From contig WFVH01000003.1 in assembly GCA_015491735.1 (NCBI GenBank), forward strand, positions 1 to 64,000: a stretch of DNA of 64,000 nucleotides, written 5' to 3'. The stretch is from Gammaproteobacteria bacterium (GTDB lineage Bacteria > Pseudomonadota > Gammaproteobacteria > Thiohalospirales > Thiohalospiraceae). Position 1 is the first letter of the stretch. Every line of letters begins with the position of its first letter. The notes under the pieces are model-generated. The model made no database searches. It worked only from the letters and a program-made list of their open reading frames with translations, and was not told where the DNA came from. The position numbers were made by a program, and so were the translations under genes. Positions 6,037 through 53,914 of the stretch are shown in pieces.

Positions 6037-6188
6037 GTAACTATTCAGCTTACCCCTGAAATCCGCCATTTCTGCGTTGAAAAATGGTCATTTACACGCG
6101 TAAACTCCCATTTTCGCCTTGAACTGACGGATTTCAGGGGCAATCTGAAACAGTTACCGGCTTGTTTCATACTATGCTGAAACGTTAC
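6037..6188 (+). mobile_element. 152-bp MITE, intact copy 1, with target-site duplication
   Basis: The element starts GTAACTATTCAGC and ends GCTGAAACGTTAC. Most of its length is a long imperfect palindrome centred on TTTACACGCGTAAA, followed by a tail with a third copy of the terminal motif. The 8 bases before it (TAACAGGT, 6029-6036) are repeated exactly after it (6189-6196), the footprint of a transposition event. It encodes no protein. It lies about 100 bp upstream of the FG-GAP gene and may alter that gene's promoter region. Confidence 0.9.
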
Positions 6189-6286
6189 TAACAGGTTAAA
6201 ATTTTTAAAATCGCATGCTGCGCGCTTGGCGTTGCGCTATATAGAGTTAATCCGGCTGTTTTGTGCCCATATCGAGGAGTTTTGGA

Positions 6287-7783
6287 ATGAAAGCTCGACA
6301 AACCTGGTTGTATCTTGCGCGGATAGGCGTGCTGCTGGCTTTTCTTTTTCCGGTCTGCGGTGCGGCGGCACCGTTTGTGGAGGAACAAAAACTGCTCCCC
6401 GGCAACAACGCCGAGGAGGAGGCGTTCTTTGGTGTGGCCGTGGCTGTTGATGGCGATACCGCGGTGGTTGGTTCTATGGAAAACAGGGGACGAGGAGCCG
6501 TTTATGTGTTTGAGAGAGAGGCTTCAGTGTGGGAGTTGAGAGCCCGCTTGACAGCGTCAAACAGAGAACTCGACGACATGTTCGGGAGTTCAATCGCCAT
6601 CAAAGGGGATCTCATTGCGGTAGGGAGCGTGATTGATGACAACGACGGCGGGGTTGATGCCGGCGCTGTCTATCTGTTTGCCAAGCCGGCAGGTGGTTGG
6701 AAGGATATGACAGAGTCTTCGATAATCACCGCCGGTGATGGTGTGGACAATCGGGCTTTCGGCCGGGATCTTGTCATGACGGAAACCACTCTCGTGGTTG
6801 GTGCGCCCGGCCACGACAATGGCGATTTGGCCGGAGCAGTCTACATTTTTGAGGCTTCGGGCTCGAACTGGATTCAGGTGGCCAAGCTGACAGCCTCCGA
6901 TGGCAGCAAGGGGGATCTGCTGGGGTACTCCGTGGATCTTTATGGTGATACGGTTGTGGCCGGCGCCTATGGCAAGGCGGGGAAAAGGGGAGCCGTTTAC
7001 CTGTATGACAAACCGGTCGCGGGGTGGAGCGATGTGACGGAAACCATCAAGCTGATGGCCGAGGATGGCGCTGCCGGCGATCAGTTTGGTTACGATGTGG
7101 CAATCGATGGTGGAAACGTCCTGGTTGGAGCAGACATGGATGACGATATGGGTGCGGATGGTGGCGCCGTGTATCTGTTTTCGGGCGCAAACTGGGCGCA
7201 ACAGCGAAAAATTACCGCCGATGATGGTTTTGCCGATCAAGGATTTGGTTACGCTGTTGATCTTGTTGGCGATACGGCGGTCGTTGGGGCTCTGCTGGAC
7301 GATGACATGGGAGAAAATTCCGGTTCGGTCTATGTATACCGGACCACCTCTGCCGCAATGGTTTATCAGGACAAGCTGGTTGCAGCGGATGGAGATGCGG
7401 AAGACCGGTTTGGCAGTACGGTCGCAGTGACGGGCAGTTACCTGTTGGCCGGCGCCTACAAAGATGCAGTTGATGGCAAACAGCGAAGTGGCTCAGCCTA
7501 TCTTTTCCATCGGCCAGGTAATGGTGGTGGTAGTAGCGACAACGGCGGCGACAACGGCGGCGATAACGGTAGCGATAACGGTAGCGATAACGGTAGCGAT
7601 AACGGTAGCGATAACGGTAGCGATAACGGTAGCGATAACGGTAGCGATAACGGTAGCGATAACGGTAATGATGACAGTAGTGGCGGTGGAGGGGGAGTAG
7701 TGGCTCCCTGGTATCTGCTATTCTTCGCCATGTTTACGCGGTTTATGTCCAGAAAGCGCCTCGCCAATCTTGTGAGGCGGTAG
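6287..7783 (+). CDS. Secreted FG-GAP repeat protein with C-terminal sorting-like tail
   Basis: The 498-residue product starts at the ATG preceded by GAGGAG (6274-6279); an in-frame start 24 bases upstream has no ribosome site. A signal peptide ends near the AAA at about residue 28. Seven repeats follow, each with a D/E-G/D-x-F/L-G core and a GDTxVVGA ending, so a seven-bladed integrin-alpha-like propeller is likely. Ca-binding-like DDDMG loops occur in several. A linker of SDNG units (about 418-462) leads to a glycine run, a hydrophobic segment and a basic end (RKRLANLVRR), the build of GlyGly-CTERM tails processed by rhombosortase. Function unknown; surface adhesion or ligand binding is a guess. 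Confidence 0.8.
   Translation: MKARQTWLYLARIGVLLAFLFPVCGAAAPFVEEQKLLPGNNAEEEAFFGVAVAVDGDTAVVGSMENRGRGAVYVFEREASVWELRARLTASNRELDDMFGSSIAIKGDLIAVGSVIDDNDGGVDAGAVYLFAKPAGGWKDMTESSIITAGDGVDNRAFGRDLVMTETTLVVGAPGHDNGDLAGAVYIFEASGSNWIQVAKLTASDGSKGDLLGYSVDLYGDTVVAGAYGKAGKRGAVYLYDKPVAGWSDVTETIKLMAEDGAAGDQFGYDVAIDGGNVLVGADMDDDMGADGGAVYLFSGANWAQQRKITADDGFADQGFGYAVDLVGDTAVVGALLDDDMGENSGSVYVYRTTSAAMVYQDKLVAADGDAEDRFGSTVAVTGSYLLAGAYKDAVDGKQRSGSAYLFHRPGNGGGSSDNGGDNGGDNGSDNGSDNGSDNGSDNGSDNGSDNGSDNGSDNGNDDSSGGGGGVVAPWYLLFFAMFTRFMSRKRLANLVRR
7538..7668 (+). repeat. 12-bp tandem repeat (minisatellite) coding SDNG units
   Basis: About eleven head-to-tail 12-bp units lie inside the FG-GAP gene. The first two read as GDNG (GACAACGGCGGC type), then nine near-identical units (GATAACGGTAGC) give SDNG. 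The near-identity at DNA level points to recent expansion by slippage, and the length is a multiple of 3 per unit so the frame is kept. It forms the flexible acidic linker between the propeller and the C-terminal tail. Confidence 0.9.
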
Positions 7784-8132
7784 ATCCAAACGGAGTGAAC
7801 CAACCTCAAGGCAGGTGAAACAAGCAGAATCTGGCCGGATCGTTGCAGTGAACCAACGATAAATTGCGTTATCGCGGAGTTGTGGCGTTTGCACCAAAAA
7901 GGTGCTCCACCGGTTTCCGGTCCCTTTTTCGCTCATTAATAGTGCGCCTTTTGTCTCCGCACAGTGAAAGAACATCTTCGCGTGATTCGGGATCTCTGTA
8001 ATTGAATCAACACGTTAATCTCCTCTGTTTCAATAGAACGGGGCGTGGTTTGAATCTTGCTTGGCCTTGCGTGGGAGGTGAGACTGCTGTGCGTCTCGAT
8101 TCGGTAAGATAATCACGCGAGGAGAACAAGCC
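7784..8132. other. Intergenic region with no recognised gene
   Basis: This 349-bp stretch separates the FG-GAP gene from the octaheme cytochrome gene. I see no convincing ORF, RNA or copy of the two repeat families. A ribosome binding site GAGGAGA (8119-8125) precedes the GTG start at 8133. A promoter for the cytochrome pair should lie here, but I could not pick out a clear one. Confidence 0.5.
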
Positions 8133-9719
8133 GTGAGTAATAAAAGACCGGCGAAACCAAGGGCGCCCCGTCCTGGTTTTTTGTTGTTGGTGGTGTTGGC
8201 GTCCCTGTTTCCGGTGCTTGCCTTGGCAGGGGAGATGTCGTTGTCGAAAGAGCAGGAGGTGGTGGCTGAAAGATCACCGATCAGCGAGGTTCCGCAACCA
8301 AGCCGTAGCACCGGGACCGGTTCGGTCGGCTCCCCGGAAACGGTGGTTGAGGAAGAGGAGCCGGTTGAAATTCTGGAGGGGTTCAAAAATCTCAGCAGGG
8401 AGAGCGCCGAGTGTGTTTCCTGTCATCGGGAAAAAACACCCGGTATCTACGAGATGTGGGGTGATTCCAAGCACTATGCCGCCAATGTGGGGTGCTACGA
8501 ATGTCACAAGGCGGATCCTTCCGACAAAGATGCGATAAAACACAAAGATCACATCATTTCCATTATTGTGTCGCCCGAGGATTGCGGGCGTTGCCATGAA
8601 AAAGCAGCCGCCGAGTTCGATGCCAGCCACCACGCCTCAGCGGGGAATATACTCGGTTCGCTGGACAATGTGTTGGCCGAGGTTGTATCAGGGGCGCCTC
8701 TGATGAGCGGGACTTCGCCCGTGGTGACCATGGGGTGCGCCGGTTGCCATGGTTCCATCGTTCGAGTCGAGTCGGACGGCTCGCTCAACCCGTCTACCTG
8801 GCCCAATACAGGTATCGGCCGGATTAATCCTGATGGCTCCAAAGGCGCTTGTTCCGCTTGCCATTTGCGTCACAACTTCGATGTGGCCCAGGCACGTCAG
8901 CCGGAAAACTGTGGTCGTTGTCATTTGGGGCCGGATCATCCACAAAAGGAGATTTACGAGGAGTCCATTCACGGTATCAACTACCGGGCGCACAAAGACA
9001 AAATGAACCTGGATTCCGACAAATGGATCGTCGGGGAGGATTACAGCGCGGCGCCTACATGCGCCACATGCCATATGTCCGCCACCAAGGATTTGCCGAT
9101 TACGCATGACATTGGCGCGCGCATCTCCTGGAATCTGCGTGCACCCATCTCGACCAAAATCGATGCCAAGGCGATTGCAGAAGGTAAGCAAGTCAAGCCC
9201 TGGCTGGAGCGGCGCAAGGACATGAAGAATGTCTGCACCTCCTGTCATGGCCGGGCGATGATTGACAATTTCTATATGCAACTGGATTCCGCCGTAGAGT
9301 TGTACAACGAGAAATATGCCAAGCCCGGTCAGCGGTTGATGAAGCTGATGAAAGCTGAAGGACTGCTTACAGACACCAAGTTTGACGATGAGCTGGAGTG
9401 GACCTGGTTCCATCTGTGGCACCATGAAGGGCGGCGGGCGCGTCATGGTGCAGCCATGCAGGCGCCGGATTATGTTCAGTGGGAGGGTTTCTATGAGATG
9501 GCGCACCGCTTCTATATGGAGATGGTGCCGCAGATCAAAGAGATCATCGAAAAAGCTGAAAAGGATGGCAAACACGAGTCTGCCAAAAAGGTACAAGCTG
9601 CGCTGGATGATGTGCTGAACTCAGAGATGCACCGCTGGTTTCTGGGTAAGGAGCCGCCGAAGTCCTGGTCGCCTGCCGATGATGATAATCACGGCTTCAA
9701 TCTCAAACCAAAAGAGTAG
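8133..9719 (+). CDS. Octaheme c-type cytochrome, hydroxylamine oxidoreductase (HAO) family
   Basis: The 528-residue protein starts at GTG after GAGGAGA. A signal peptide (about 1-33) is followed by a linker with an EEEE run. There are eight CXXCH heme sites: CVSCH, CYECH, CGRCH, CAGCH, CSACH, CGRCH, CATCH and CTSCH, the last near residue 370. The C-terminal helical part with HEGRRARHGA and PDYVQWEGFYE fits the HAO fold, more like the epsilonproteobacterial type than nitrifier HAO. In HAO a tyrosine crosslinks the catalytic P460 heme; I cannot tell by eye whether it is kept. It is periplasmic and probably oxidises hydroxylamine or reduces nitrite or hydroxylamine. A tetrathionate reductase of the octaheme type is the main alternative. 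Confidence 0.78.
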   Translation: MSNKRPAKPRAPRPGFLLLVVLASLFPVLALAGEMSLSKEQEVVAERSPISEVPQPSRSTGTGSVGSPETVVEEEEPVEILEGFKNLSRESAECVSCHREKTPGIYEMWGDSKHYAANVGCYECHKADPSDKDAIKHKDHIISIIVSPEDCGRCHEKAAAEFDASHHASAGNILGSLDNVLAEVVSGAPLMSGTSPVVTMGCAGCHGSIVRVESDGSLNPSTWPNTGIGRINPDGSKGACSACHLRHNFDVAQARQPENCGRCHLGPDHPQKEIYEESIHGINYRAHKDKMNLDSDKWIVGEDYSAAPTCATCHMSATKDLPITHDIGARISWNLRAPISTKIDAKAIAEGKQVKPWLERRKDMKNVCTSCHGRAMIDNFYMQLDSAVELYNEKYAKPGQRLMKLMKAEGLLTDTKFDDELEWTWFHLWHHEGRRARHGAAMQAPDYVQWEGFYEMAHRFYMEMVPQIKEIIEKAEKDGKHESAKKVQAALDDVLNSEMHRWFLGKEPPKSWSPADDDNHGFNLKPKE

Positions 9720-9730
9720 TTGAACTGAAT

Positions 9731-9758
9731 CGCCGTCTGCCCGTTTGCCGGGTGGGCG
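9731..9758 (+). terminator. Hairpin after the octaheme cytochrome gene
   Basis: GCCGTCTGCCCG can pair along its full length with CGGGTGGGCGGC, with three G-T wobbles and a four-base loop, followed by TTGCTGTCTTTTT. It lies between the octaheme gene and its nonaheme partner, so it could limit read-through and make the second gene less expressed than the first. Confidence 0.6.
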
Positions 9759-9895
9759 GCTTGCTGTCTTTTTGCCGTTGGATCCGGAACCCGGGATAGT
9801 CGTTTATCAGGAGTTCACCCATTTGATACGGGGTCTGCACCCGGTTTCTCAGTGTTTCGCGGCAAAACAGGTGCTGCTTCAGCGGGTTTGTCATC

Positions 9896-11824
9896 ATGCA
9901 CGAACGGTTTTTTCTCTTCCTGGCCTTTTTATTCTCCTTTGGTGCCTATGGCACAGAGTTGTCGGATGACGCTTGTCTGGATTGTCACGGTGTTGCGGGC
10001 TTTGCTGTGCCGATCGGAGAAACCGGCGGTGGTGCAATGCGTTCTCTTGATATCAATGCGCATGCGCTGAAACAGAGTGTTCATGGAGAACTGCCCTGTA
10101 TAGAGTGTCATGCAGGCATTGAAAAGCTGCCACATGATAAAGATGGTCTGCAGGCGGTGGATTGCGTTACCTGCCATAGCCGGTTGGAAAAAGGTGGACT
10201 GTCCGGTAAGCGCCGGGGTCATCGCGTCCGGGGTGAGCTGAGCAGTCGGCAGAAAACGGTGGTGAACAATGCGCGCTACCAGACATCGATTCATGCAGAT
10301 ACCGCAGTAGAAAACAATGCCACCTGTGACCGCTGCCACACGGCTCACTATGTTTACCGTTCGGATGATTCGCGTGCTACAACCTATTCCGGCAACTCAC
10401 CGCAGATGTGTGGCGCATGCCATACCAAAGAGCTGCAGGAGTACCGGTTTTCGGTTCATGGCGCCAATCTGAAGCGCCCCTGGCGTGGAGAGAGCGCCAC
10501 CTGCAGCGATTGCCATACCTCTCACCGGATAAGTGGTGAAAAGCTGACCGCACACCGGATTGTGACCGACTCTTGTGGTGATTGTCATGAGCTGGAGGTG
10601 GAGGCCTATCTCTCCACCACTCATGGCGCACTGGCCTGGCTGGGAAACAGTGATGCCGCCAAATGCGCCAACTGTCACCGCGCTCATGCCATGCGTGCCG
10701 TCGATGATCCCCTCTCCCTTGTCAGCAGCGAAAGCAAGTTAATCACCTGCAGGGAGTGTCATGAGGACGCTAACGAAAATTTTATTCAGTACCGCGTGCA
10801 TGGCAATACCCATGATTATGAAAAATATCCCTATATGTGGCTGGCTGCCCGTATCATGGTGGGAATCGTGCTTTTTGTGCTGATATTTTTCTATGCACAT
10901 TCGATGCTTTGGTTTTATCGGGAGATTCATTCGCGGGTGATTGAGTGGCGCATTGTGGATTCCAGGCGTTACCCATTCCGCGTGAAGCGGCCACATAAAA
11001 AGAGCGGCAAGCATTTTCGCCGCTTCTCCTGGCAGTGGCGGCTCAACCACTGGGCGGTAGCGCTGTCAGTGATGACGCTGGTATTTACCGGCATGTCGGT
11101 TATGTATGCTAACGCGTCCTGGGCGGTGTGGGCGGTCGAGGCGGCCGGTGGTCACGGCCTGTTCACCACGATTCACCGTTTTGCGGCGGTGGTGTTTCTG
11201 GGGGCGATCATCGGTCATGCGGTGGCGGTAATCTACAATATTCGTCGTAATCCTGATTTCGATTGGTTTGGCCCCGATTCGCTATTGCCACGCAAAAAGG
11301 ATTGGCAGGATATGGTTGGGCAGTTCAAGTGGTTTTTTGGCAAGGGAGAGCAGCCCCGCTTCGACCGCTGGACCTATTGGGAAAAATTCGATTACTGGGC
11401 GGTCTACTGGGGTGCATTGGTTATTGGCGTATCCGGCATGATGTTGTGGTTCTCCGATACCGTTGGCAACCTGTTGCCCGGCTGGGTGTTGAACGTGGCC
11501 ACCATCGCGCACGGGGTCGAGGCCTTTCTGGCTGTCATGACGCTGTTCGTCGTTCATTTTTTCAACAATCATATCCGTCCCGGAAAGTTTCCGCTGGATA
11601 TTGTCATGTTCAGTGGTAGCTGGGATCTGGAGGAGTTTAAAGAGGAGCGCCCGGAGGAGTACCGCCGGTTGGTGGAGAGCGGTGAACTGGAAAAATATTT
11701 GGTAGCGCCCCCTTCTCCCGCCCGCTCGCGTCTGTATCACATCCTGGGATTCATTTTGCTGGGGATCGGTTTCGTGCTGTTAGCGCTGGTTGTCAGGAGT
11801 TTTATTCATGGCGGGTTGGTATAA
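9896..11824 (+). CDS. Nonaheme cytochrome c fused to a membrane cytochrome b-type domain
   Basis: The 642-residue protein has a signal peptide, then nine CXXCH sites (CLDCH, CIECH, CVTCH, CDRCH, CGACH, CSDCH, CGDCH, CANCH, CRECH) within the first 300 residues. A C-terminal half with about six membrane helices follows. Helices carrying LNHWAVALS, TTIHRFAAVVFLGAIIGHA and IAHGVEAFLA supply histidines placed like the heme-b ligands of cytochrome b561/FdhI-type proteins. The design suggests electron transfer between the quinone pool and periplasmic hemes. Placed 176 bp after the octaheme HAO-like gene on the same strand, it is probably its membrane redox partner. The direction of electron flow cannot be read from sequence. 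Confidence 0.8.
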   Translation: MHERFFLFLAFLFSFGAYGTELSDDACLDCHGVAGFAVPIGETGGGAMRSLDINAHALKQSVHGELPCIECHAGIEKLPHDKDGLQAVDCVTCHSRLEKGGLSGKRRGHRVRGELSSRQKTVVNNARYQTSIHADTAVENNATCDRCHTAHYVYRSDDSRATTYSGNSPQMCGACHTKELQEYRFSVHGANLKRPWRGESATCSDCHTSHRISGEKLTAHRIVTDSCGDCHELEVEAYLSTTHGALAWLGNSDAAKCANCHRAHAMRAVDDPLSLVSSESKLITCRECHEDANENFIQYRVHGNTHDYEKYPYMWLAARIMVGIVLFVLIFFYAHSMLWFYREIHSRVIEWRIVDSRRYPFRVKRPHKKSGKHFRRFSWQWRLNHWAVALSVMTLVFTGMSVMYANASWAVWAVEAAGGHGLFTTIHRFAAVVFLGAIIGHAVAVIYNIRRNPDFDWFGPDSLLPRKKDWQDMVGQFKWFFGKGEQPRFDRWTYWEKFDYWAVYWGALVIGVSGMMLWFSDTVGNLLPGWVLNVATIAHGVEAFLAVMTLFVVHFFNNHIRPGKFPLDIVMFSGSWDLEEFKEERPEEYRRLVESGELEKYLVAPPSPARSRLYHILGFILLGIGFVLLALVVRSFIHGGLV

Positions 11825-11842
11825 ATGGCGTAATTTATTGGC

Positions 11843-11872
11843 TGTAAACACACCTTTTTCGCTTTGATCTGG
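11843..11872 (+). repeat. Possible relic of the 152-bp MITE
   Basis: GTAAACACACCTTTTTCGC followed by TTTGATCTGGC resembles the centre-right of the intact element (GTAAACTCCCATTTTTCGC then CTTGAACTGAC). The similarity covers only about 30 bases and no termini remain, so this is tentative. It lies between the nonaheme cytochrome and mgtE, which converge. Confidence 0.4.
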
Positions 11873-11914
11873 CTGTGTACACATTCTGCAACTTGCTGGG
11901 TCGTTACGCGGTAT

Positions 11915-24084: not shown

Positions 24085-24191
24085 CTCAGAAATCTGCGCC
24101 CCATTTGTGCGCTGAAAAATGGCCATTTACCTTGTACAAACACACATTTTCCGCCTTGAGCCGGCGAATTTCAGGAGCTATCCGGGCAGTG
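24085..24191 (+). repeat. Decayed copy of the 152-bp MITE between kdsD and kdsC
   Basis: The order of blocks matches the intact element with many substitutions: AGAAATCTGCG, GCTGAAAAATGGCCATTTAC, ACACATTTTCCGCCTTGAG, CGAATTTCAGGAGC, then a mutated inner terminal motif. Both outer ends are lost. It marks an old insertion inside a gene run that is otherwise tightly packed. Confidence 0.75.
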
Positions 24192-24212
24192 ACTTTCAGA
24201 TTCTGCAGCTCG

Positions 24213-25470: not shown

Positions 25471-25635
25471 GTAACTACTCAGCGAGTTGTAGAGCTTGAA
25501 GGTATAACTGCCCGGATGGCCCCTGACGTTCGTCAGTTCAAGCGCAAGGCAAAAAGGTGAGTTTGCACAAGATAGGTGGCCATTATTTCAATGCAGGAAT
25601 GGCGCGCGGCTTTCAAGGGCGAGCCGAGCAGTTAC
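25471..25635 (-). mobile_element. Decayed full-length copy of the 152-bp MITE, reverse orientation
   Basis: It begins GTAACTACTCAGC (one mismatch from the intact end) and ends GAGCAGTTAC, with recognisable inner blocks GGCCCCTGACGTTCGTCAGTT and GAGTTTGCAC in the right order. The flanking 8-mers ATAGTATC and ACCGTATC match at six of eight places, a weathered target duplication. It fills the 342-bp gap between the HMA gene and the exchanger gene; nothing else is seen in that gap. Confidence 0.75.
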
Positions 25636-31048: not shown

Positions 31049-32365
31049 ATGAGACTTTTTACCGCCATACTCTTTGTGTTGTTTTCGATGGTTTTGCCAG
31101 CAGCGGAGCAGGTGCAAGTTGGTGATGTGCGCCTGTGGCAGTCTGCTGAAAAGTTGCGCCTGGTCTTCGATGTCAGTGCCCCGCTGGAATACGATCTGTT
31201 CCGGCTTTCCGATCCGGAGCGGCTGGTTGTGGATCTGAGCAATGCCCGAATTGCCCCCCGGCAGCCAAGCCTCTCCGCCGAAGGCTGGTTCAAGCAGATT
31301 CGCACAGCATCCCGGAATGGCGGCGATCTGCGTCTGGTGCTGGATCTCGAGCGCCCGGTCAGCCCGGCCAGCTTTATTCTCAAGCCGGATCGAAAGCGTG
31401 GCCATCGGTTGGTTATCGACCTGTTTGCCAATACGGCTGCTCCGGCCGGGGACTCTTTTGCAAGCGTTAAACCCGGATCTGCACCGCGGGAAGGCAGGGA
31501 TATCGTCGTCGCCATCGATGCTGGGCACGGGGGAGAAGACCCCGGAGCGATAGGAAAGGGAAAAACCCGTGAAAAAGAGGTGGTGCTGGCCATTGCCCGT
31601 AAACTGCAGGGGTTGGTGGATCGTGAACCCGGTATGCGGGCGGTGATGATTCGCGAAGGCGACTACTATATCGGTCTGCGGGATCGAATAAAAAAGGCGC
31701 GTCAGCACAAGGCGGATCTGTTTATCTCCATTCATGCCGACTCGTTCAAGCGGAGCAGCGCCCGAGGCTCCTCCGTGTTCACACTGTCGGCGCACGGTGC
31801 CACCAGCGAGGCTGCGCGATGGCTGGCCGAAAAAGAGAACGCGGCGGATTTGATCGGCGGTGTCAGTCTGGATGACAAGGACGATATCCTTGCTTCGGTG
31901 CTGCTTGATCTCTCCCAGACGGCAACCATCGAAGCCAGTACCACGGTGGCTGCCAAAGTGCTCGACCAGCTGGGAAAGGTGAATGAACTGCACAAGCGGC
32001 ATGTGGAGCAGGCTGGTTTTGCGGTGCTCAAATCGCCAGATATCCCCTCTATTCTGGTGGAAACAGCCTTTATCTCGAATCCCAGCGAAGAACGCAAGCT
32101 GAACAACAAGGCGCACCAAAAAAAGCTTGCTCGCGCCATTCTGTCCGGTGTGCGCGCCTATTTTCTCAAGTACCCTCCTCCCGGAACCGCCCTGGCGCTG
32201 CGTTCCGCTGGAGAACGGTATGTCATTCAACAGGGTGATACCCTATCCACCATAGCCCGGCGTTATCGTGTACGGATGGATGATATACGCCAGACCAACG
32301 GACTGGAGAGTGATCTGTTACGTGTTGGCGACGTTTTGCTTATTCCCGGCACCCTTGGGGGCTGA
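31049..32365 (+). CDS. N-acetylmuramoyl-L-alanine amidase with AMIN and LysM domains (AmiB/AmiC type)
   Basis: The 438-residue protein has a signal peptide (about 1-20), an AMIN domain (about 22-120) for septal targeting, a zinc Amidase_3 domain (about 150-370; IDAGHGGEDPG, FISIHADSF, VETAFISNP) and a C-terminal LysM (about 390-433). It cleaves peptide crosslinks from glycan strands during cell separation. Like amiB in E. coli it precedes mutL. The stop codon lies inside a 13-base copy of the MITE end (32361-32373), so the 3' end of the gene may have been shaped by an insertion. Confidence 0.94.
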   Translation: MRLFTAILFVLFSMVLPAAEQVQVGDVRLWQSAEKLRLVFDVSAPLEYDLFRLSDPERLVVDLSNARIAPRQPSLSAEGWFKQIRTASRNGGDLRLVLDLERPVSPASFILKPDRKRGHRLVIDLFANTAAPAGDSFASVKPGSAPREGRDIVVAIDAGHGGEDPGAIGKGKTREKEVVLAIARKLQGLVDREPGMRAVMIREGDYYIGLRDRIKKARQHKADLFISIHADSFKRSSARGSSVFTLSAHGATSEAARWLAEKENAADLIGGVSLDDKDDILASVLLDLSQTATIEASTTVAAKVLDQLGKVNELHKRHVEQAGFAVLKSPDIPSILVETAFISNPSEERKLNNKAHQKKLARAILSGVRAYFLKYPPPGTALALRSAGERYVIQQGDTLSTIARRYRVRMDDIRQTNGLESDLLRVGDVLLIPGTLGG

Positions 32366-32398
32366 ATAGTTACGGTTCTGTTTGAGTAACTATTCAGC
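32361..32398. terminator. Hairpin formed by two facing MITE-end sequences at the amidase stop
   Basis: GCTGAATAGTTAC (32361-32373) is exactly inverted as GTAACTATTCAGC (32386-32398), the left end of the MITE, with a 12-base loop. The upstream half contains the amidase stop codon. It can act as a transcript hairpin; whether it ends transcription is unknown because no T-run follows. Confidence 0.55.
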
Positions 32399-32537
32399 TC
32401 ACCCCTGAAATCCGCCATTTCTGCGTTAAAAAATGGTCATTTACACGCGTAAACTCCCATTTTTTGCCTTGAACTGACGAATTTCAGGGGCAATCTGAAC
32501 AGTTACCGGCTTGTTTCATACTATGCTGAATAGTTAC
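32386..32537 (+). mobile_element. 152-bp MITE, intact copy 2, with exact target-site duplication
   Basis: Ends are GTAACTATTCAGC and GCTGAATAGTTAC, exact inverted repeats. The 8 bases on the left (CTGTTTGA, 32378-32385) are repeated exactly on the right (32538-32545). It lies between the amidase gene and mutL. Confidence 0.93.
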
Positions 32538-32550
32538 CTGTTTGATTGCT

Positions 32551-32633: not shown

Positions 32634-34382
32634 ATGTGCGCATCTCCCCGTGTTCACCGTCTTTCCAACCGTTTGGCCAATCAGATTGCCGCCGGCGAAG
32701 TGGTGGAGCGTCCCGCTTCCGTTCTCAAGGAGCTGCTGGAGAACAGCCTTGACTCCGGTGCCACCAGTATCCGTGTTGATATCGAAGGCGGTGGGGTTCG
32801 CCTTATTCGAGTACAGGACAACGGCTGCGGGATTCACAAGGAGGATATGGCACTGGCGTTGAGCCGCCATGCAACCAGCAAAATTGGCAAACTGGCGGAT
32901 CTGGAAAAGCTGTCCAGCATGGGTTTTCGAGGCGAGGCGTTGGCAAGCATAACCTCGGTTTCCCGTTGCAGGGTTGTATCAAAAACAGTCGAGTCCAGGA
33001 CGGGATACGCCGTTGAGGTGGCGGGCAGCGAGTTGCAGGGTGAGCCTGTTCCCCAGGCCCACCCGTCGGGAACGACTGTGGAGGTGCGGGATCTTTTTTT
33101 CAATACGCCTGTGCGGCGGCGTTTTCTGCGCAGTGAGCGCACCGAGCAGGGTCATCTGGAAGATGTATTCAAGCGGATGGCGCTGAGCCGGTTCGGCATC
33201 CGCTTTTCTTTGCATGTTGGTCAGCGGAATATCTATAGATTACCTGCTTCACAGGATGTTGGCGGGCAAGAGCATCGTGTGATGCGGCTGTGTGGCAAGG
33301 CTTTTCTGAGTCATGCCCTGTTCATCGAGTTTGAAGCAGCCGGGATGTGTTTGCGGGGGTGGATTGCTACCCCGGATTTTGCCCGTAGTCAGACAGATCT
33401 GCAATATTTTTTTCTTAACGGACGTGCTATCCGGGACAGGCTGGTTAACCATGCTATCCGCCAGGCTTATCAGGATCGTCTCTACCACGGGAGGCATCCA
33501 GCCTACCTCCTGTTTTTGGAGATGGCGCCCGAACAGGTGGATGTGAACGTCCACCCAACGAAGCATGAAGTCCGGTTTCGAGAAGCCCGGTTGGTGCACG
33601 ATTTTTTGCTTGATACGCTTCAACGCGTTCTGGACGGGAGAGCTGAACGCGTGCCGGAACCCTCTGCCGGGAGCGGGAAGAGCTCTGCCCTCCCCCCGTG
33701 GGGAAAGAGGCCTGCCGCACCGGAATCTCCGGCCATCGACAGAGTCAACGAGCAGATGGCTGTCTACAAAAAGTTGCACGGGCCGCCGCAATCAGCGTTG
33801 ACAGACGCCCGCGGGGGCTTATCGGGTTCTGCACTGGCCGCGCTGTATGATCGTTATGTTCTTGTCCGGCAAAAGGAGAAGCTGTTATTGATCGATTCGG
33901 TGCGGGCGCGTGAATGCTTAATCAAGGAGCGATTGACGATATCCCTGAACAAGGGAGCCATATCCGCTCAGCCGCTGCTGCTGCCGGTTAGAGTCGAGCT
34001 GGAGGCGGGCCGCCGATACCGGAACGTGGAGCGGCTTGGCAAACAGCTGTACAGGTTTGGTATCGATATTTCGCTTGCCGGCCCGAAGCAGATTCTGGTG
34101 CGGCAACTTCCGGAGACAATACGCAACTGCAAACCCGATACCTTTATCACCACCCTGTTATCGGAAATAGAGCAAACGGGGGGAAAGGAGAATGAGCAAC
34201 GGATGATTAAAATGATAGCCCGGCATGCCGCACGAACCATCGCGCTGCCCGCGGCGCTCGATGAACTGAACGCCTTCTTGCGGGAAATCGAGCCATTGGC
34301 CGAGTACCGGCAGGGTGGAGCGGGTGTCAGCGTCGAGTTGGATCAGCCGGCTCTGGCGCGGTTATTTGTTAACCGGGGGTGA
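32634..34382 (+). CDS. mutL: MutL, DNA mismatch repair ATPase
   Basis: The 582-residue protein has the GHKL ATPase N-terminus: ELLENSLDSG (33-42), QDNGCGI and GFRGEALASI, all well kept. The C-terminal dimerisation domain begins near 395. The metal-binding DQHAxxER motif of endonuclease-type MutL is replaced by DSVRARECL, and no CPHGRP motif is seen, so it probably lacks nicking activity, as in E. coli, which would imply a MutH-type partner elsewhere. Its stop codon lies at the edge of a MITE fragment. Confidence 0.95.
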   Translation: MCASPRVHRLSNRLANQIAAGEVVERPASVLKELLENSLDSGATSIRVDIEGGGVRLIRVQDNGCGIHKEDMALALSRHATSKIGKLADLEKLSSMGFRGEALASITSVSRCRVVSKTVESRTGYAVEVAGSELQGEPVPQAHPSGTTVEVRDLFFNTPVRRRFLRSERTEQGHLEDVFKRMALSRFGIRFSLHVGQRNIYRLPASQDVGGQEHRVMRLCGKAFLSHALFIEFEAAGMCLRGWIATPDFARSQTDLQYFFLNGRAIRDRLVNHAIRQAYQDRLYHGRHPAYLLFLEMAPEQVDVNVHPTKHEVRFREARLVHDFLLDTLQRVLDGRAERVPEPSAGSGKSSALPPWGKRPAAPESPAIDRVNEQMAVYKKLHGPPQSALTDARGGLSGSALAALYDRYVLVRQKEKLLLIDSVRARECLIKERLTISLNKGAISAQPLLLPVRVELEAGRRYRNVERLGKQLYRFGIDISLAGPKQILVRQLPETIRNCKPDTFITTLLSEIEQTGGKENEQRMIKMIARHAARTIALPAALDELNAFLREIEPLAEYRQGGAGVSVELDQPALARLFVNRG

Positions 34383-46142: not shown

Positions 46143-46143
46143 C

Positions 46144-46938: not shown

Positions 46939-46945
46939 ACCGGTG

Positions 46946-47473
46946 ATGAGAATTTCGCTGATCTGGGCCATGTCCGATGATCGCGTGATCGGCATTGGCA
47001 ACCGGTTGCCCTGGAGGTTGCCTGCTGATATGCGCTGGTTCCGTCGTCATACGTTGGGCAAGCCGGTCATTATGGGGCGCAAAACCTATGCATCTTTTGG
47101 TGAAACCCCCCTGCCCGGACGTAAAAACATTGTTGTTACTCATGACCATGGCTATCAGTCCCAGGGGGCAGAGGTGGTCTTTTCCATCGATGAGGCCTTG
47201 GCAGTTGCCGAACCAGCAGAAGAGGCCATGATTATCGGCGGTGCGCTGCTGTATCAGCAGCTGTTGCCACACGCTGACCGCCTTTACATGACCAAAGTGC
47301 ATGGGAAGTTCAGGGGGGATACCTGGTTTCCCGCGTTTGACCCGGATGAGTGGCAGGAGATGGAAAGCCACGCCTTTGGCACTGACGACAAGAATCGCTG
47401 GCCGTACAGTTTTTATATTCTGGACAGGAAAAGCAGCATGGCGAAACCACCGGTAATCCCGGCTTCAGAGTAG
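46946..47473 (+). CDS. folA: FolA, dihydrofolate reductase
   Basis: The 175-residue protein is read from MRISLIWAMSDDRVIG; six more codons are open upstream without similarity. It has NRLPWRLPADMRWFRRHT (about 18-35) with the acidic Asp of the active site and GRKTYASFG. It reduces dihydrofolate made by ThyA. It starts 7 bp after thyA. Confidence 0.96.
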   Translation: MRISLIWAMSDDRVIGIGNRLPWRLPADMRWFRRHTLGKPVIMGRKTYASFGETPLPGRKNIVVTHDHGYQSQGAEVVFSIDEALAVAEPAEEAMIIGGALLYQQLLPHADRLYMTKVHGKFRGDTWFPAFDPDEWQEMESHAFGTDDKNRWPYSFYILDRKSSMAKPPVIPASE

Positions 47474-47509
47474 CTGTTGTCGGGTCAATACGTGGGTAGA
47501 AATGGGGTT

Positions 47510-48553
47510 ATGACGATACGACGCAGGGCGCTGGCCCTGATTTCAGGCGGGCTGGATTCCCTGCTGGCTGCTCGCGTGGTGATGGAGCAGGGAATTCATG
47601 TCGAGGGAATCAATTTCTATACCGGTTTCTGCGTGGAGGGGCATACACACGCCATCCGCAAAAAAGACCGCACCCGGCCCCGGCGCAACAATGCGCTCTG
47701 GGTGGCCGAGGAGCTTGGCATCAGGCTGCATATTGTTGATGTGAGCGAGCAGTATAAAAATGTGGTGATCAACCCGAAGCACGGTTACGGCGCTAATCTC
47801 AACCCCTGTCTGGATTGCAAATGTTTTATGGTTGGCAAGGCGGTGGAATGGATTGAAAAACAGGGTTTCGACTTCATCATTACCGGTGAAGTGATCGGGC
47901 AACGGCCGATGTCTCAACGCCGTGATACCATGCGGATAGTGGTTAGAGAGTCAGGTGTAGGTGAGCGCTTGCTTCGTCCGCTGTGCGCAAAAAACCTGTC
48001 GCCGACGCTGCCGGAACAGAAGGGATGGGTCGATCGGGACAAGCTGTTCGGCTTCAGTGGCCGTTCGCGGAAGCCACAGATGGCATTGGCACGGCGGTTT
48101 GGGTTGACCGATTATGCCCAGCCCGCCGGTGGTTGCTGCTTTCTCACTGACGAGGCCTATTCCCGCAAGCTGGCGGATCTCTGGCAGGCACGCGGTTCGC
48201 GGGAATACGAGCTTGATGACATCATGCTGCTCAAGGTGGGCCGGCATCTTCGCCCCCGCCCCCATTTCAAGCTGATTATTGGCCGCGAGGAGGGGGAGAA
48301 CAACTTTCTGCAAGGTTATCGCCACCAGTTTATCCAGTTGCGCATAAACAGCCACCCGGGGCCGTTAACGTTGATTGATGGGGAGGTCACTCCAGACGAT
48401 TGCGGGCTGGCGGCTCGCATTGCAGCCCGTTTTAGCGCCGGGCGGGATGCGGAGGAGGTGGAGATGCTGCTGCTGGACAGGGACGGTTCAGAACAGTTGT
48501 TGCGCGTGGCTCCGCTGCCGGTGGCGGAGATACGGCCGGAATGGTATCTGTGA
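47510..48553 (+). CDS. PP-loop ATPase, MnmA/ThiI-like, with DUF814-type C-terminus
   Basis: The 347-residue protein is read from MTIRRRALALISGGLDS. The PP-loop SGGLDS is at 12-17, typical of enzymes that adenylate tRNA bases before sulfur insertion. Conserved cysteines occur in NPCLDCKCFM and AGGCCFL. The C-terminal part (about 240-347) resembles the DUF814/NFACT-R fold. With a TusA-like sulfur carrier encoded next, overlapping by 13 bases, a tRNA or cofactor thiolation role is likely; the target is unknown. It is not MnmA or ThiI itself, judging by length and motif order. Confidence 0.8.
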   Translation: MTIRRRALALISGGLDSLLAARVVMEQGIHVEGINFYTGFCVEGHTHAIRKKDRTRPRRNNALWVAEELGIRLHIVDVSEQYKNVVINPKHGYGANLNPCLDCKCFMVGKAVEWIEKQGFDFIITGEVIGQRPMSQRRDTMRIVVRESGVGERLLRPLCAKNLSPTLPEQKGWVDRDKLFGFSGRSRKPQMALARRFGLTDYAQPAGGCCFLTDEAYSRKLADLWQARGSREYELDDIMLLKVGRHLRPRPHFKLIIGREEGENNFLQGYRHQFIQLRINSHPGPLTLIDGEVTPDDCGLAARIAARFSAGRDAEEVEMLLLDRDGSEQLLRVAPLPVAEIRPEWYL

Positions 48554-48780
48554 AATACCGCCTGGATGCCCGCCGTCTCTTGTGTCCACTGCCGGTGATA
48601 CGGGTTCAGGACCGGATGAACAGCATGGTGGCGGGAGAGATGCTGGAGGTAATCTGTACCGATCCCGGGGCTGCCAGTGATATCCCGGCATGGTGCCGGA
48701 TCAACGGCCACAAAATTCTTGATATGGAGGAGCGGGAGGGGGAACTGGTGATTGTCATCGAGGCAGGTAAATCAGGTTGA
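48541..48780 (+). CDS. TusA-family sulfurtransferase
   Basis: The 79-residue protein has the TusA core: LDARRLLCPLPVIRVQDRM (about 8-26) with the persulfide-carrying Cys in the CPxP motif at about 15. It probably passes sulfur to the PP-loop protein encoded upstream. In sulfur oxidisers TusA-like proteins also act in cytosolic sulfur oxidation, but no dsr or hdr genes lie here. The stop shares bases with the TTG start of the transporter gene. Confidence 0.9.
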   Translation: MVSVKYRLDARRLLCPLPVIRVQDRMNSMVAGEMLEVICTDPGAASDIPAWCRINGHKILDMEEREGELVIVIEAGKSG

Positions 48781-49943
48781 AGCGTACCGAACCTTCGTCT
48801 CAATCCGCTGTGGAGGGGCAGCGCTACCATCAGATCCGCAAGGTCACCCTGATCGGTTCGGCAATCGATCTGGGGCTGGCGATAGTCAAACTGGCTGCGG
48901 GTTTCTTCGGGCAGTCTCAGGCCCTGATTGCGGATGGCGTACACTCACTGTCCGATCTGGCTACCGATTTCATCGTGCTCTATGCAGCCAGGCACTCCAG
49001 CCGGGAAGCCGATGAGAGTCACCCGTATGGCCATGGCCGGTTCGAGACTATCGCAACGGTTGTTTTGGGAATGGCATTGATGCTGGTTGCATCGGGTATC
49101 GTTTGGGACGCTGTCAAGCGCTTGTTTCACCCAGACGAGCTGATGCAGCCTGGCGTGCTGGCGCTCCTGGTTGCGGCGGTATCGGTCGTGACGAAAGAGT
49201 GGATATACCGTTACACAAAACGGGTGGCCGATCGATTACGATCGCAATTGTTGGCGGCGAACGCCTGGCACAGCCGGACCGATGCCATCTCTTCCGTTAT
49301 CGTCATCGTGGGCGTGGCCGGCACCATGGCCGGTCTTCCCTACATGGATGCGATTGCCGCTGCTGCCGTGGGTTTGTTCATCGCCAGGATTGGTTGGGAG
49401 CTGGTTTGGTGCAGTGTGCGCGAGCTGGTTGATACGGGGCTTGAAGAAGCGCAACTGAACAAAATAAGGGAGATCATCCGCGGGGTGGATGGCGTACAGG
49501 GTCTGCACAGTTTGCGTACCCGGCGAGTGGGAGCGGATGCTTTGGTCGATGTGCATATCCTGGTTGAATCCCATGTCAGCGTTTCCGAAGGGCACCATAT
49601 TGGCGAGGTGGTTCGTATCCGGCTGTTGCAGGAGCATGATGAGGTCAACGATGTGCTGGTGCATATCGATCCGGAGGATGACGAGCAGAACCGGTACAGC
49701 TGCCAGTTGCCGCTGCGCAGGGAGCTGTTGACCCGTTTGCACGGGTGCTGGGCGGATTTTGACGCGGCAAAACAGGTTGAGGAAGTAACGCTCCACTACC
49801 TGCACAACAGGATCCAGGTTGTGTTGTTGCTGCCCTTGTCAGTGCTCGAAAAAGGGGCTTCAGTTGACGAATTGAGCGCAGGATTCAGATCCCTGTCAAG
49901 CGAGATAGAGGTCATCGATAGTATTCAACTGGTATTTCACTAA
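48777..49943 (+). CDS. Cation diffusion facilitator (FieF-like) metal transporter
   Basis: The 388-residue protein starts at a TTG that overlaps the TusA-like gene. It has about six membrane helices with the metal-site residues in DGVHSLSDLATDF (about 52-64), HPYGHGRFE and the second Asp pair region HSRTDAIS. A long C-terminal cytosolic part (about 205-388) exceeds the usual CDF regulatory domain by some 80 residues. It exports divalent metals such as Zn2+ or Fe2+; specificity cannot be read. Confidence 0.9.
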   Translation: MKRTEPSSQSAVEGQRYHQIRKVTLIGSAIDLGLAIVKLAAGFFGQSQALIADGVHSLSDLATDFIVLYAARHSSREADESHPYGHGRFETIATVVLGMALMLVASGIVWDAVKRLFHPDELMQPGVLALLVAAVSVVTKEWIYRYTKRVADRLRSQLLAANAWHSRTDAISSVIVIVGVAGTMAGLPYMDAIAAAAVGLFIARIGWELVWCSVRELVDTGLEEAQLNKIREIIRGVDGVQGLHSLRTRRVGADALVDVHILVESHVSVSEGHHIGEVVRIRLLQEHDEVNDVLVHIDPEDDEQNRYSCQLPLRRELLTRLHGCWADFDAAKQVEEVTLHYLHNRIQVVLLLPLSVLEKGASVDELSAGFRSLSSEIEVIDSIQLVFH

Positions 49944-49944
49944 T

Positions 49945-49989
49945 GCACCATAATGAGTCTTGCCTTGCCCCTGCGGATCATAATGGTGC
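49945..49989 (+). promoter_or_regulatory. Two candidate NtrC binding sites upstream of glnA
   Basis: Site 1 is GCACC-ATAAT-GAGTC (49945-49959); site 2 is GGATC-ATAAT-GGTGC (49975-49989). Each keeps one perfect half of the GCACC-N5-GGTGC palindrome. They are 30 bp apart centre to centre, about three helical turns. Relative to the predicted start at 50071 they lie near -119 and -89, like the glnA enhancer of E. coli. Confidence 0.65.
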
Positions 49990-50044
49990 GTACCGGGGCG
50001 TCAGGATTCAACTAACGGTCTGTTTTTCAAATGTCCAACAGGCA

Positions 50045-50060
50045 TGGCATATTTAATGCT
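50045..50060 (+). promoter_or_regulatory. Candidate sigma54 promoter of glnA
   Basis: TGGCATATTTAATGCT has GG at 50046-50047 and GC at 50058-50059 with exactly the -24/-12 spacing. It is close to the TGGCAC-N5-TTGC consensus. It predicts a transcript start near 50071. RpoN (19992-21476) and NtrC (53919-55313) are both encoded in the window. Confidence 0.7.
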
Positions 50061-50077
50061 TTTATGGTAGAACAGTT

Positions 50078-50229
50078 GTAACTATTCAGCATGGCATGAA
50101 ACAAGCCGGTAACTGTTCAGATTGCCCCTGAAATTCGTCAGTTCAAGGCGAAAAATGGGAGTTTACGCGTGTAAATGACCATTTTTCAACGCAGAAATGG
50201 CGGATTTCAGGGGTGAGCTGAATAGTTAC
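50078..50229 (-). mobile_element. 152-bp MITE, intact copy 3, in the glnA leader
   Basis: Reverse orientation, ends GTAACTATTCAGC and GCTGAATAGTTAC. The flanking 8-mers GAACAGTT (50070-50077 and 50230-50237) are identical. It lies directly downstream of the predicted sigma54 start site, so almost the whole glnA leader would be this palindrome. The element also brings an ATG (50197) that opens a 23-codon reading frame ending at 50268, 18 bases before glnA. Confidence 0.93.
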
Positions 50230-50286
50230 GAACAGTTTTTTCGAGTGGACTTTGGACTTAAACAATAATTGCCCGGAGGCGAGCAG

Positions 50287-51693
50287 ATGGCCAATAATGT
50301 GTTGAAGCTGATTGAAGATAAGGAAGTAAAGTTTGTCGATTTCCGTTTTACTGATACCCGGGGCAAAGAGCAGCATGTTACCTACCCCGCGGCAACGGTG
50401 GACGCGGATACCCTTTCGGAAGGGAAAATGTTTGATGGATCCTCCATCGCCGGCTGGAAGGGGATCCAGGAGTCCGACATGATTCTCAAGCCGGATCTGG
50501 ATACGGCCGTGCTGGATCCATTTACCGATGAATCCACCCTTATCATCCGTTGTGACATCATCGAGCCAAACACCATGCAGGGCTATGAGCGCGATCCCCG
50601 TTCTGTTGCCCGGCGCGCCGAGGCCTATCTGCAATCCACCGGCATCGGGGATACGGCCTACTTTGGCCCCGAGCCGGAGTTCTTCATTCTGGATGATGTG
50701 CGTTGGGGCGCCAGCATCGAGGGGGCTTTCTACAAGGTGAACTCCGAGGAGGCCGAATGGAACTCTGAAACCACCTTTGAAGGCGGTAATATCGGCCACC
50801 GTCCCAGTGTCAAAGGCGGTTATTTCCCGGTACCGCCGGTTGATTCACTGCACGATATCCGCGCCGCCATGTGTCTGGCCATGGAAGAGATGGGATTGAC
50901 CACGGAAGTTCACCATCATGAAGTGGCAACTGCCGGGCAGTGCGAGATTGGCACCGCTTTCAATACTTTGGTGCGCAAGGCGGATGAAGTGCAGATTCTC
51001 AAGTACTGCGTACACAATGTCGCCCACGCGTACGGCAAAACGGCAACCTTCATGCCCAAACCCCTGGTGGGCGATAACGGTACCGGCATGCATGTCCACC
51101 AGTCACTTGGCAAGGATGGGGTAAATATTTTCTCTGGCAACGAGTATGGCGGGCTGTCCGAGACAGCGCTGTACTATATTGGAGGCATCATCAAGCATGC
51201 CAGGGCGCTCAACGCGTTTACCAATGCCAGCACCAACAGTTACAAACGGCTGGTCCCCGGTTTTGAAGCCCCCGTCATGCTGGCCTACTCTGCCCGTAAT
51301 CGCTCTGCTTCGGTGCGCATCCCCTATGTTACCAACCCCAAGGCCCGCCGCATCGAGGTGCGTTTCCCCGATCCAACCGCCAACCCCTATCTGGCCTTTG
51401 CGGCCATGATGATGGCGGGTCTGGATGGTATCCAGAACAAGATCCATCCCGGTGAGGCGATGGACAAAAATCTTTATGATTTGCCGCCAGAAGAAGAGGC
51501 GAACATTCCCACCGTATGCCACTCTTTCGATCAAGCCCTGGAGGCTCTGGATAGCGACCGTGAGTTCCTGACGGCGGGAGGGGTCTTCACCAACGACATG
51601 ATTGATGGTTATATCGAACTCAAGATGGAGGAGATCACGCGTCTGCGAATGACAACTCATCCGGTTGAATTCGATATGTATTACAGCGTTTGA
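50287..51693 (+). CDS. glnA: GlnA, type I glutamine synthetase
   Basis: The 468-residue protein is read from the ATG after GGAGGCGAG. It has the beta-grasp N-domain and the catalytic barrel with [20 protein letters not shown], and [10 protein letters not shown]. The adenylylation Tyr in NLYDLPPEE (about 397) marks the GS I-beta type under GlnE control. It makes glutamine from glutamate and ammonia. Candidate NtrC sites and a sigma54 promoter lie upstream; a strong terminator follows. Confidence 0.98.
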
Positions 51694-51718
51694 TTCAAGT
51701 TCCGCCGGTTGCTTGCCG

Positions 51719-51744
51719 ACAATGCCCCCATCTGGGGGCATTGT
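51719..51744 (+). terminator. Rho-independent terminator of glnA
   Basis: ACAATGCCCCC is exactly inverted as GGGGGCATTGT with the loop ATCT. A T-rich tail follows and is interrupted by a MITE at 51751. Confidence 0.85.
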
Positions 51745-51750
51745 TGTTTG

Positions 51751-51903
51751 GTAACTATTCAGCTCACCCCTGAAATCCGCCATTTCTGCGTTGAAAAAGG
51801 GTCATTTACACGCCGTAAACTCCCATTTTTCGCCTTGAACTGACGGATTTCAGGGGCAATCTGAACAGTTACCGGTTTGTTTCATACTATGCTGAATCGT
51901 TAC
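51751..51903 (+). mobile_element. 153-bp MITE, copy 4, after the glnA terminator
   Basis: Left end GTAACTATTCAGC; right end GCTGAATCGTTAC with one change. Flanks GTTGTTTG and GTTGTTTA match at seven of eight places. It lies in the T-rich tail of the glnA terminator, upstream of the DUF4124 gene. Confidence 0.9.
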
Positions 51904-51968
51904 GTTGTTTATAAGATTGTGACAATGTCTTGTTGCCGTACTCATCCTGCTTGGGATATGCTTTGCAC

Positions 51969-52505
51969 ATGTGGATCGTTCTCATTGCCTTGCTGTTGGT
52001 TTTTGCCCCGTCTCCGTACGCCCAGGAGGTATATCGATCGACGGACTCCGATGGTGTTCCTCTCTTTTCCGATCGCAATCGGGCCGGGGCCGAGAAGCTT
52101 GAAATAGAACCCCTCCCGACGATAAAAACCCATTCTCCAGCCGCGGCACCTCCGGTCACATCTGGAAACAGGCCTGTTTCCCGCCCCGCCAGGCCGGTCC
52201 ATGTCAAGGTTACCATCGACAATCCCGCCGATGATTCCGTCGTGTGGGCTACCGGAGGACCCGTCGCGGTTTTTGTTGCCACCGAACCTGCAATTCGCGC
52301 TGATACTGGCGATACCATCGGGTTGCGCATTGACGGTAGCCTGCTGGCGGAACGTTATAAAAGCGGGAATATTTCGTTAACGGGCATCGAACGGGGCACA
52401 CATACGTTGCAAGCCGTTGTTTTCGATTCTTCCGGTCGTATTGCTGCAGAATCTGAAACCATTACTTTTCACGTCAAGCGTCATTCCATCCTGCATAAAC
52501 GGTAA
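51969..52505 (+). CDS. DUF4124 domain periplasmic protein
   Basis: The 178-residue protein is read from MWIVLIALLLVFAPSPYAQ, a signal peptide cleaved after AQA-like residues near 19. The DUF4124 start EVYRSTDSDGVPLFSD follows. A proline-rich linker (about 55-80) leads to an Ig-like beta domain (about 80-178). This family is often encoded between glnA and ntrB in gammaproteobacteria; its role is unknown. Confidence 0.85.
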   Translation: MWIVLIALLLVFAPSPYAQEVYRSTDSDGVPLFSDRNRAGAEKLEIEPLPTIKTHSPAAAPPVTSGNRPVSRPARPVHVKVTIDNPADDSVVWATGGPVAVFVATEPAIRADTGDTIGLRIDGSLLAERYKSGNISLTGIERGTHTLQAVVFDSSGRIAAESETITFHVKRHSILHKR

Positions 52506-52683
52506 GTTTATCGCATGGCAAGCGCACCAGTTTGGTGCATCAATGCCCCGTTTACGGTAATATTGCTTTCGCCCGGGTTTCCTGTTTCCCTCTCGCTTGG
52601 GGGGGGCTGCCCGTTTTCTTGTTTTTGCCTGCTAAATTGGTTGCCCGATGGGGGTTTGGTTTGGTTTTTGCTTGCTACCTGAT

Positions 52684-53766
52684 ATGGATGCCGTGACAAA
52701 TCAAACCCGTACCGCCGCACCGTATATTCTCGACAATCTGAGCGTTGCTATCTGTCTGCTGGATGCCGGTTTACGAATTCGTTATATCAATCCGGCAGGT
52801 GAAACCCTGTTCGGCGCCAGCGCCCAGCGCCTGCAGCGCCTTCCTGTGGAGCAACTGCTCGACTCTCCCGGTGTGGCGGAACTTCTTGCCAGTACGCTGG
52901 AAAGTGGCTCCCCTTGTATTGAACGTGAATGTCGTTTGGGCACCGGGGGTCATAGTCCGGTAACCGTCGATCTGACGGCAATTCCGCTGAGGGAACCGCC
53001 CGGTTCCCGCGAGCTGCTTGTGGAGTTGGTTCGTGTCGATCATCAGATACGCATGGCGAGGGAAGAAAACCTGCTTGCGCAGCAGCAGATTACGCAGGAA
53101 ATCGTGCGCGGTTTGGCGCATGAGATCAAGAACCCGTTAGGGGGGGTGCGTGGGGCAGCTCAGTTGCTGGAGTGCGAGCTGGATGACACTTCGTTACAGG
53201 AGTACACCCAGGTGATCGTTCATGAGGTCGACCGGCTGCAGACTCTGTTGAACCGCATGCTCGGGCCACACAGGCTTCCGCGCAAGCGGAAGATAAACAT
53301 TCATCAGGTGGTGGAGCGGGTTCGCACGTTGGTGCAGGCGGAGGTGGCGGCTGGAGTTACTCTGCTTTGGGACTACGATCCGAGTTTGCCGGAGCTGAAC
53401 GCGGATATGGATCAGCTAATCCAGGCCGTTCTGAATATCGTGCGTAACGCTGTGCAGGCGTTACCGGAAGAGGGGGAGATCATTCTGCGTACACGTGCGC
53501 ACCGGCGCTGTACAGTAGGGCATGTGTGCCACCGGCTGGTATTGTGTATCGATGTTATCGATAACGGCCCCGGAATACCGGAGTCCATGCAGCAGAAAAT
53601 TTTCTATCCACTGGTTACCGGCCGGGCTGAAGGAACAGGACTGGGATTGTCCATTGCCCAGTCACTGGTAAACCAGCACGGTGGCTTGATTGAGTGCCAT
53701 AGCCGCCCGGGAAGAACCCGGTTTTCGATTTTGCTGCCTGTACGGGAAGAGCAAGAAAATGGGTAA
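52684..53766 (+). CDS. glnL: NtrB (GlnL), nitrogen regulation sensor kinase
   Basis: The 360-residue kinase, read from MDAVTNQTRT, has a PAS domain (about 12-120), HisKA with His146 in GLAHEIKNPLGG, and an ATPase domain with NIVRNAVQAL and GTGLGLSIAQSL. It phosphorylates or dephosphorylates NtrC under PII control. The stop TAA is supplied by the MITE inserted at its end. Removing the element and one target copy restores GAA AAT GAG TAG, overlapping the ntrC start. Confidence 0.95.
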   Translation: MDAVTNQTRTAAPYILDNLSVAICLLDAGLRIRYINPAGETLFGASAQRLQRLPVEQLLDSPGVAELLASTLESGSPCIERECRLGTGGHSPVTVDLTAIPLREPPGSRELLVELVRVDHQIRMAREENLLAQQQITQEIVRGLAHEIKNPLGGVRGAAQLLECELDDTSLQEYTQVIVHEVDRLQTLLNRMLGPHRLPRKRKINIHQVVERVRTLVQAEVAAGVTLLWDYDPSLPELNADMDQLIQAVLNIVRNAVQALPEEGEIILRTRAHRRCTVGHVCHRLVLCIDVIDNGPGIPESMQQKIFYPLVTGRAEGTGLGLSIAQSLVNQHGGLIECHSRPGRTRFSILLPVREEQENG

Positions 53767-53914
53767 CTATCCAGCTCACCCCTGAAATCCGCCATTTCTG
53801 CGTTGAAAAATGCTCATTTACACGCGTAAACTCCCATTTTTCGCCTTGAACTGACGAATTTCAGGGGCAATCTGAACAGTTACCGGCTTGTTTCATACTA
53901 TGCTGAATAGTTAC
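53763..53914 (+). mobile_element. 152-bp MITE, copy 5, inserted between ntrB and ntrC
   Basis: Left end GTAACTATCCAGC (one change), right end GCTGAATAGTTAC. Flanks GAAAATGG (53755-53762) and GAAAATGA (53915-53922) match at seven of eight places. The duplicated target contains the ntrC start codon. The insertion ends ntrB early and places a long palindrome between the two genes. Confidence 0.92.

Follow-up and report, generated by a model that had tools for sequence, protein, structure and literature searches.

A 152-bp repeat family with 8-bp target duplications in a gammaproteobacterial genome is probably a MITE, very likely moved by IS66-family transposases

We investigated a family of short repeats in a 64-kb stretch of a gammaproteobacterial genome (contig WFVH01000003.1); the whole stretch that was analyzed is referred to as the window. 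All five copies of the original prediction were found at the positions and with the flanks that it had given. The window additionally holds a decayed copy, three fragments, and a lone end, which had been overlooked (last five lines below).

6037–6188, forward strand: MITE copy 1; duplication TAACAGGT at 6029–6036 and 6189–6196, perfect
32386–32537, forward strand: MITE copy 2; duplication CTGTTTGA at 32378–32385 and 32538–32545, perfect; inner end 32494–32506, tail 32507–32537
50078–50229, reverse strand: MITE copy 3; duplication GAACAGTT at 50070–50077 and 50230–50237, perfect; inner end 50109–50121, tail 50078–50108
51751–51903, forward strand: MITE copy 4, 153 bp; GTTGTTTG/GTTGTTTA at 51743–51750 and 51904–51911, 7/8 match; inner end 51860–51872
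53763–53914, forward strand: MITE copy 5; GAAAATGG/GAAAATGA at 53755–53762 and 53915–53922, 7/8 match; inner end 53871–53883
25471–25635, reverse strand: old decayed MITE copy, 165 bp, ~72% identity; ends GTAACTACTCAGC/GTAACTGCTCGGC; flanking octamers agree at 6/8
24101–24193, forward strand: MITE fragment, element positions 30–121, 79% identity
5805–5850, forward strand: MITE fragment, element positions 75–121, 87% identity
34376–34426, forward strand: MITE remnant 3′ of mutL, comprising the inner end and the 31-bp tail with the outer end
32361–32373, reverse strand: lone 13-bp end, which provides the TGA stop of the amidase gene at 31049–32365

As predicted, three of the duplications are perfect and two match at seven of eight positions. 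The predicted length of 152 bp holds for four copies, but the copy at 51751 has 153 bp. Likewise, the common 13-bp ends are exact at both termini only in the copies at 32386 and 50078, whereas the other three have one or two mismatches at one end.

Genes in the window were named from Pfam domains and gene order. Copy 2 is flanked by the amidase gene (31049–32365) and mutL (32634–34382), and glnA (50269–51693) has copy 3 upstream and copy 4 downstream. Copy 5 sits between a histidine kinase gene (ntrB-like, 52648–53766) and a sigma-54 response regulator gene (ntrC-like, 53919–55313): its left end gives the ntrB-like gene its TAA stop, and the right duplication preserves the ATG of the ntrC-like gene. 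The flanks suggest that the two genes overlapped before the insertion (GAAAATGAGTAG), as they apparently do in the related genome G007; the element entered between two probably overlapping regulatory genes with neither frame destroyed. Promoter-like and terminator-like sites in the glnA–ntrBC stretch were no commoner than in shuffled sequences. Elsewhere in the window (57270–62118), genes for the RuBisCO large subunit and CsoS2 (carboxysome) were present, suggesting a chemolithoautotrophic host.

Each element has a single left end but two right ends in tandem. The first 121 bp form a core that closes with the end motif, as an inner right end, and the tail carries a second, outer right end, usually 31 bp further on (21 or 34 bp in some). 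Elements mostly terminate at the outer right end (152 bp) and occasionally at the inner one (121 bp). Tail sequences vary between genera, whereas the core is conserved, with up to 92% identity between families.

The 13-mer end, allowing up to two mismatches, matched 741 sites in the 2.43-Mb genome, far above chance, whereas the reversed control matched 26. In the 1.06 Mb examined (~43% of the genome, in stretches including the window), we found 103 near-full-length copies, and extrapolation from the end counts (342 of 741 in the examined part) would give about 220 for the whole genome. Copies diverge from the consensus by a median of 2%. Many contigs of this genome begin or stop within a copy, and 30 of the 103 copies lay close to or at a contig end or the limit of an examined stretch; the MITE accounts for assembly breaks in the genomes that carry it. 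Among the 73 copies with both flanks, 8-bp duplications were exact in 53 and had at most one mismatch in 64 (mispaired flanks: 0.02% and 0.2%, respectively), and lengths of 4–7 and 9–12 bp gave nothing comparable in the same copies. The duplications were thus not confined to the five copies on which the prediction had been based. Shorter or longer derivatives (62, 100, 121, and 176 bp) also occur within matching duplications. In one copy (L110:6923–7098), GTAACTATTCAG occurs three times in tandem at the outer end, inside an intact 8-bp duplication.

Insertions lay outside called genes in 55 of 64 cases, though a simple ORF caller marked 84% of the sequence as coding; most of the other nine were close to the 5′ end of a called gene, whose start may have been miscalled. 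The distance to a gene 3′ end was 30 bp or less in 20 of 49 cases, and that to a 5′ end in 4 of 45. Rather than the same loci being occupied in all relatives, four window sites were empty in same-genus genomes. At the 50078 site, six related genomes align across without the MITE, and the alignments break at the element borders; G003 and G004 read TAGAACAGTTTTTT, in which GAACAGTT occurs once rather than twice; the reading in G006 is GAACGGTT. Relatives covering the 51751 and 32386 sites have no MITE there, and in G007 the 53763 site is unoccupied. Furthermore, G001 and the host genome carry independent insertions beside the same gene end, with different duplications. A separate observation concerns a 6.9-kb stretch shared with G007 (L082, host contig C5, 3438–10338; L161, G007 contig C145, 124–7025), which is 99.3% identical and includes one MITE copy, against ~78% identity in aligned blocks between the two genomes. 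It reflects either recent transfer or cross-contamination of the draft assemblies.

The family therefore has the properties by which a MITE is recognized: it is short (152 bp), lacks coding capacity, has 13-bp terminal inverted repeats and target duplications of constant length (8 bp; 64/73 with at most one mismatch), and occurs as many near-identical dispersed copies at sites that are empty in relatives. The duplications, empty sites, and near-identical copies bear out the predicted MITE reading, and the family is real and probably recently active.

Elements of 152 bp with 8-bp duplications were also present in several other families, and one element of G212 is 121 bp long and framed by a perfect duplication of its own. 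Matches to the MITE were obtained in 24 of 369 genomes sampled across the class; in a phylum-wide sample, further matches came nearly all from two families of another class, whose elements have the same layout and perfect duplications (152 bp in L300, 155 bp in L302). A first look at G477 (2.0 Mb), from another class of the phylum, gave 446 candidates for the 121-bp core, which may represent a still larger expansion. A longer element with both ends like the MITE left end lies beside a MITE copy at a contig start (L120:158–378). As for a vector of spread, plasmids, phages, and viral contigs (the last in one pattern scan) gave no MITE match.

We then considered which transposase could move the family. 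IS66 elements bearing the same 13-mer occur in the host genome and in relatives. One IS66 relic of the host has the left end GTAACTATTCAGC, followed by a TnpC gene interrupted by an insertion with a Y1 transposase gene (IS200-like, PF01797; L077:1740–2700), which lies beside short direct repeats ACACATGGGGTCAGGTCT. A second has a right end with the same 13-mer at a contig end, and in G002 the 3′ end of TnpC is followed by that 13-mer. A full IS with the same ends, as the original prediction had proposed to look for, is intact in an uncultured Ectothiorhodospiraceae MAG and was the one relative of these IS66 elements that a search of public genomes found, whereas the host has only broken copies. 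The intact element (L157:375–2101, 1727 bp; ends GTAACTATTCAGC and GTAACCATTCAGC) is occupied for the most part by a single 475-aa TnpC ORF (PF03050, E = 3.1e-47; NF033517, IS66 transposase, E = 1.7e-90), with neither TnpA nor TnpB. No duplication was seen at its flanks, and the MITE was not detectable in its genome. No intact TnpC gene was found in the host genome, both IS66 copies seen being truncated or cut by a contig end. In its examined part, pairs of ends separated by up to 6 kb and flanked by a matching duplication delimited no element longer than 176 bp. Several MITE-bearing genomes had no TnpC match; these are draft assemblies, in which IS copies often get lost.

In the MITE-rich relative G020, IS66 ends lie at contig breaks (22 left and 27 right), and 13 of the 22 left flanks had an exact 8-mer partner among the right flanks, where 0.009 would be expected by chance and none was found at other offsets. 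The IS66 family of G020 is collapsed, numbers no fewer than 22 copies, and has 8-bp duplications; its ends begin with GTAA, the combination that characterizes the ISBst12 group. The base just outside the duplication was A/T in 73% of cases for IS66 (G020) and 83% for the MITE (G000), and the second base in 94% and 95%, respectively. At end position 8 (T or C), the MITE left end agreed with the resident IS66 in the eight genomes where both were readable. G006, however, also has a C-type IS66, the outer MITE ends of G020 are mixed, and the agreement is suggestive only. Taken together, the same 13-bp ends at IS66 transposase genes, the 8-bp duplications in G020, the common target preference, and the ends and duplication of ISDge4 (PMC12898284) bear out the IS66 relationship that had been inferred from one stretch of DNA.

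Based on these sequence comparisons, the repeats very likely form a family of non-autonomous transposons (MITEs) that ISBst12-type transposases of the IS66 family move in trans. The mover would be encoded by one TnpC (DDE) gene, without TnpA or TnpB. We infer that TnpC recognizes the 13-bp ends GTAACT[AG][TC]TCAGC, cuts there, and moves the MITE; staggered cuts of the target would leave 8-bp duplications in A/T-bordered sites (WW-N8-WW).

Other origins fit less well. REP/REPIN elements are short palindromes that depend on a Y1 transposase and leave the target unduplicated. A REP/REPIN origin with a RAYT was rejected in view of the 8-bp duplications and IS66-matching ends, the only Y1 gene encountered being the one inserted into the IS66 relic. 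The MITE has only ~13 bp in common with the IS66 elements examined, and we therefore also rejected an origin as a simple deletion product of them. The same short overlap, together with the presence of only broken IS66 copies in the host genome, might point to a different, unrecognized transposase family with 8-bp duplications, the IS66-like ends being due to coincidence or convergence. We give this very little credence, since the identical 13-mer sits on IS66 in the same genome, duplication length (8 bp) and target preference are equal, and the ends of an active ISBst12-group element have been published (PMC12898284).

The core folds into a long hairpin. For 22 core sequences, 38 pairs were predicted, 22 of which showed compensatory two-sided changes, compared with 7.3 (sd 1.8) in shuffled controls and at most 12 in slid controls; relatedness is accounted for by the latter and not by the former. 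Nine second-class sequences folded separately gave compensatory changes at 9 of 39 pairs. In addition, the unpaired GCGTT / CCTTG internal-loop stretches are conserved in sequence between genera and also in the other class, and these stretches and the compensatory changes indicate that the 121-bp hairpin is maintained. Its upkeep may serve transposition or an RNA, or may result from arm-to-arm correction. A preponderance of two-sided changes (57, against ~21 one-sided changes of the G–U type) is what a process or constraint at the DNA level would give, and the complementarity of the arms might stem from template-switch (quasi-palindrome) correction in replication rather than from hairpin function. 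This account concerns the fold only and is compatible with movement by IS66, but it is somewhat unlikely, because correction alone would tend to erase the mismatched loops that are kept.

The strongly covarying core, an RNA fold z-score of −8.6, and the mostly intergenic position of the copies, often near gene 3′ ends, could also mean that the element is primarily a domesticated structured repeat (an ERIC/REP-like RNA hairpin, mRNA 3′-end, or regulatory element) kept by selection, with mobility past or incidental. We regard this as improbable: relatives do not share the window sites, the duplications are mostly still exact, copies lie within ~2% of the consensus, two genomes have separate insertions beside the same gene end, and no Rfam family matches the window. 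Moreover, selection against gene disruption already predicts an intergenic bias. Returning to the IS66-driven MITE, we infer that the hairpin is important for transposition. A tentative extension is that one old MITE lineage runs through both classes, its 121-bp hairpin and doubled right end having been favored by selection because they make a better substrate for ISBst12-type transposases. The fold would then be a working part of transposition (or have an RNA or cruciform function), so that the element could outnumber and outlive its parent IS instead of being a passive deletion product. The role of the conserved fold is open to direct testing, and the MITE, present some two hundred times per genome and paired with a matched TnpC, offers a compact natural substrate. 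This is of interest because the mechanism of IS66-family transposition has been described as insufficiently characterized (PMC12898284).

The closest known system on the transposase side is ISDge4 of Deinococcus geothermalis (IS66 family, ISBst12 group), which has nearly identical ends (GTGACTACTCAGCA/GTAACTGCTCAGCA) and was observed transposing, with an 8-bp duplication (CCTCGATG) as the result (PMC12898284, 2026). The end motif, the 8-bp duplication, and the single TnpC of the matching IS elements agree with ISDge4 and its group, whereas the 152-bp element encodes nothing and has at most the ~13-bp end in common with the examined IS66. A literature search for an IS66-family MITE found none, with ISfinder and most subscription papers lying outside its reach, which is not proof of novelty. 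The family resembles Correia, ERIC, Chunjie, and MITEAba12 (reviewed in PMC10969869) in being short, palindromic, high-copy, intergenic, and geneless with duplicated targets, but differs from the bacterial MITEs of that review, which does not mention IS66, in its IS66 parentage and two tandem right ends. By description only, it can also be likened to QMITE2 of Coxiella burnetii (PMC5896051), which is 150–190 bp long with 7–11 bp duplications, often lies at gene 3′ ends, and has long and short versions and relatives in another class; that paper gives no IS66 connection for QMITE2. The kind of element, a bacterial MITE, is therefore known, and this variant stands out by its IS66 parentage, its doubled right end, and a covarying core of wide distribution. 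Most described bacterial MITEs are known from a genus or family, whereas the folded core of the 152-bp element spans two classes, an unusually wide distribution for a bacterial element of this kind.
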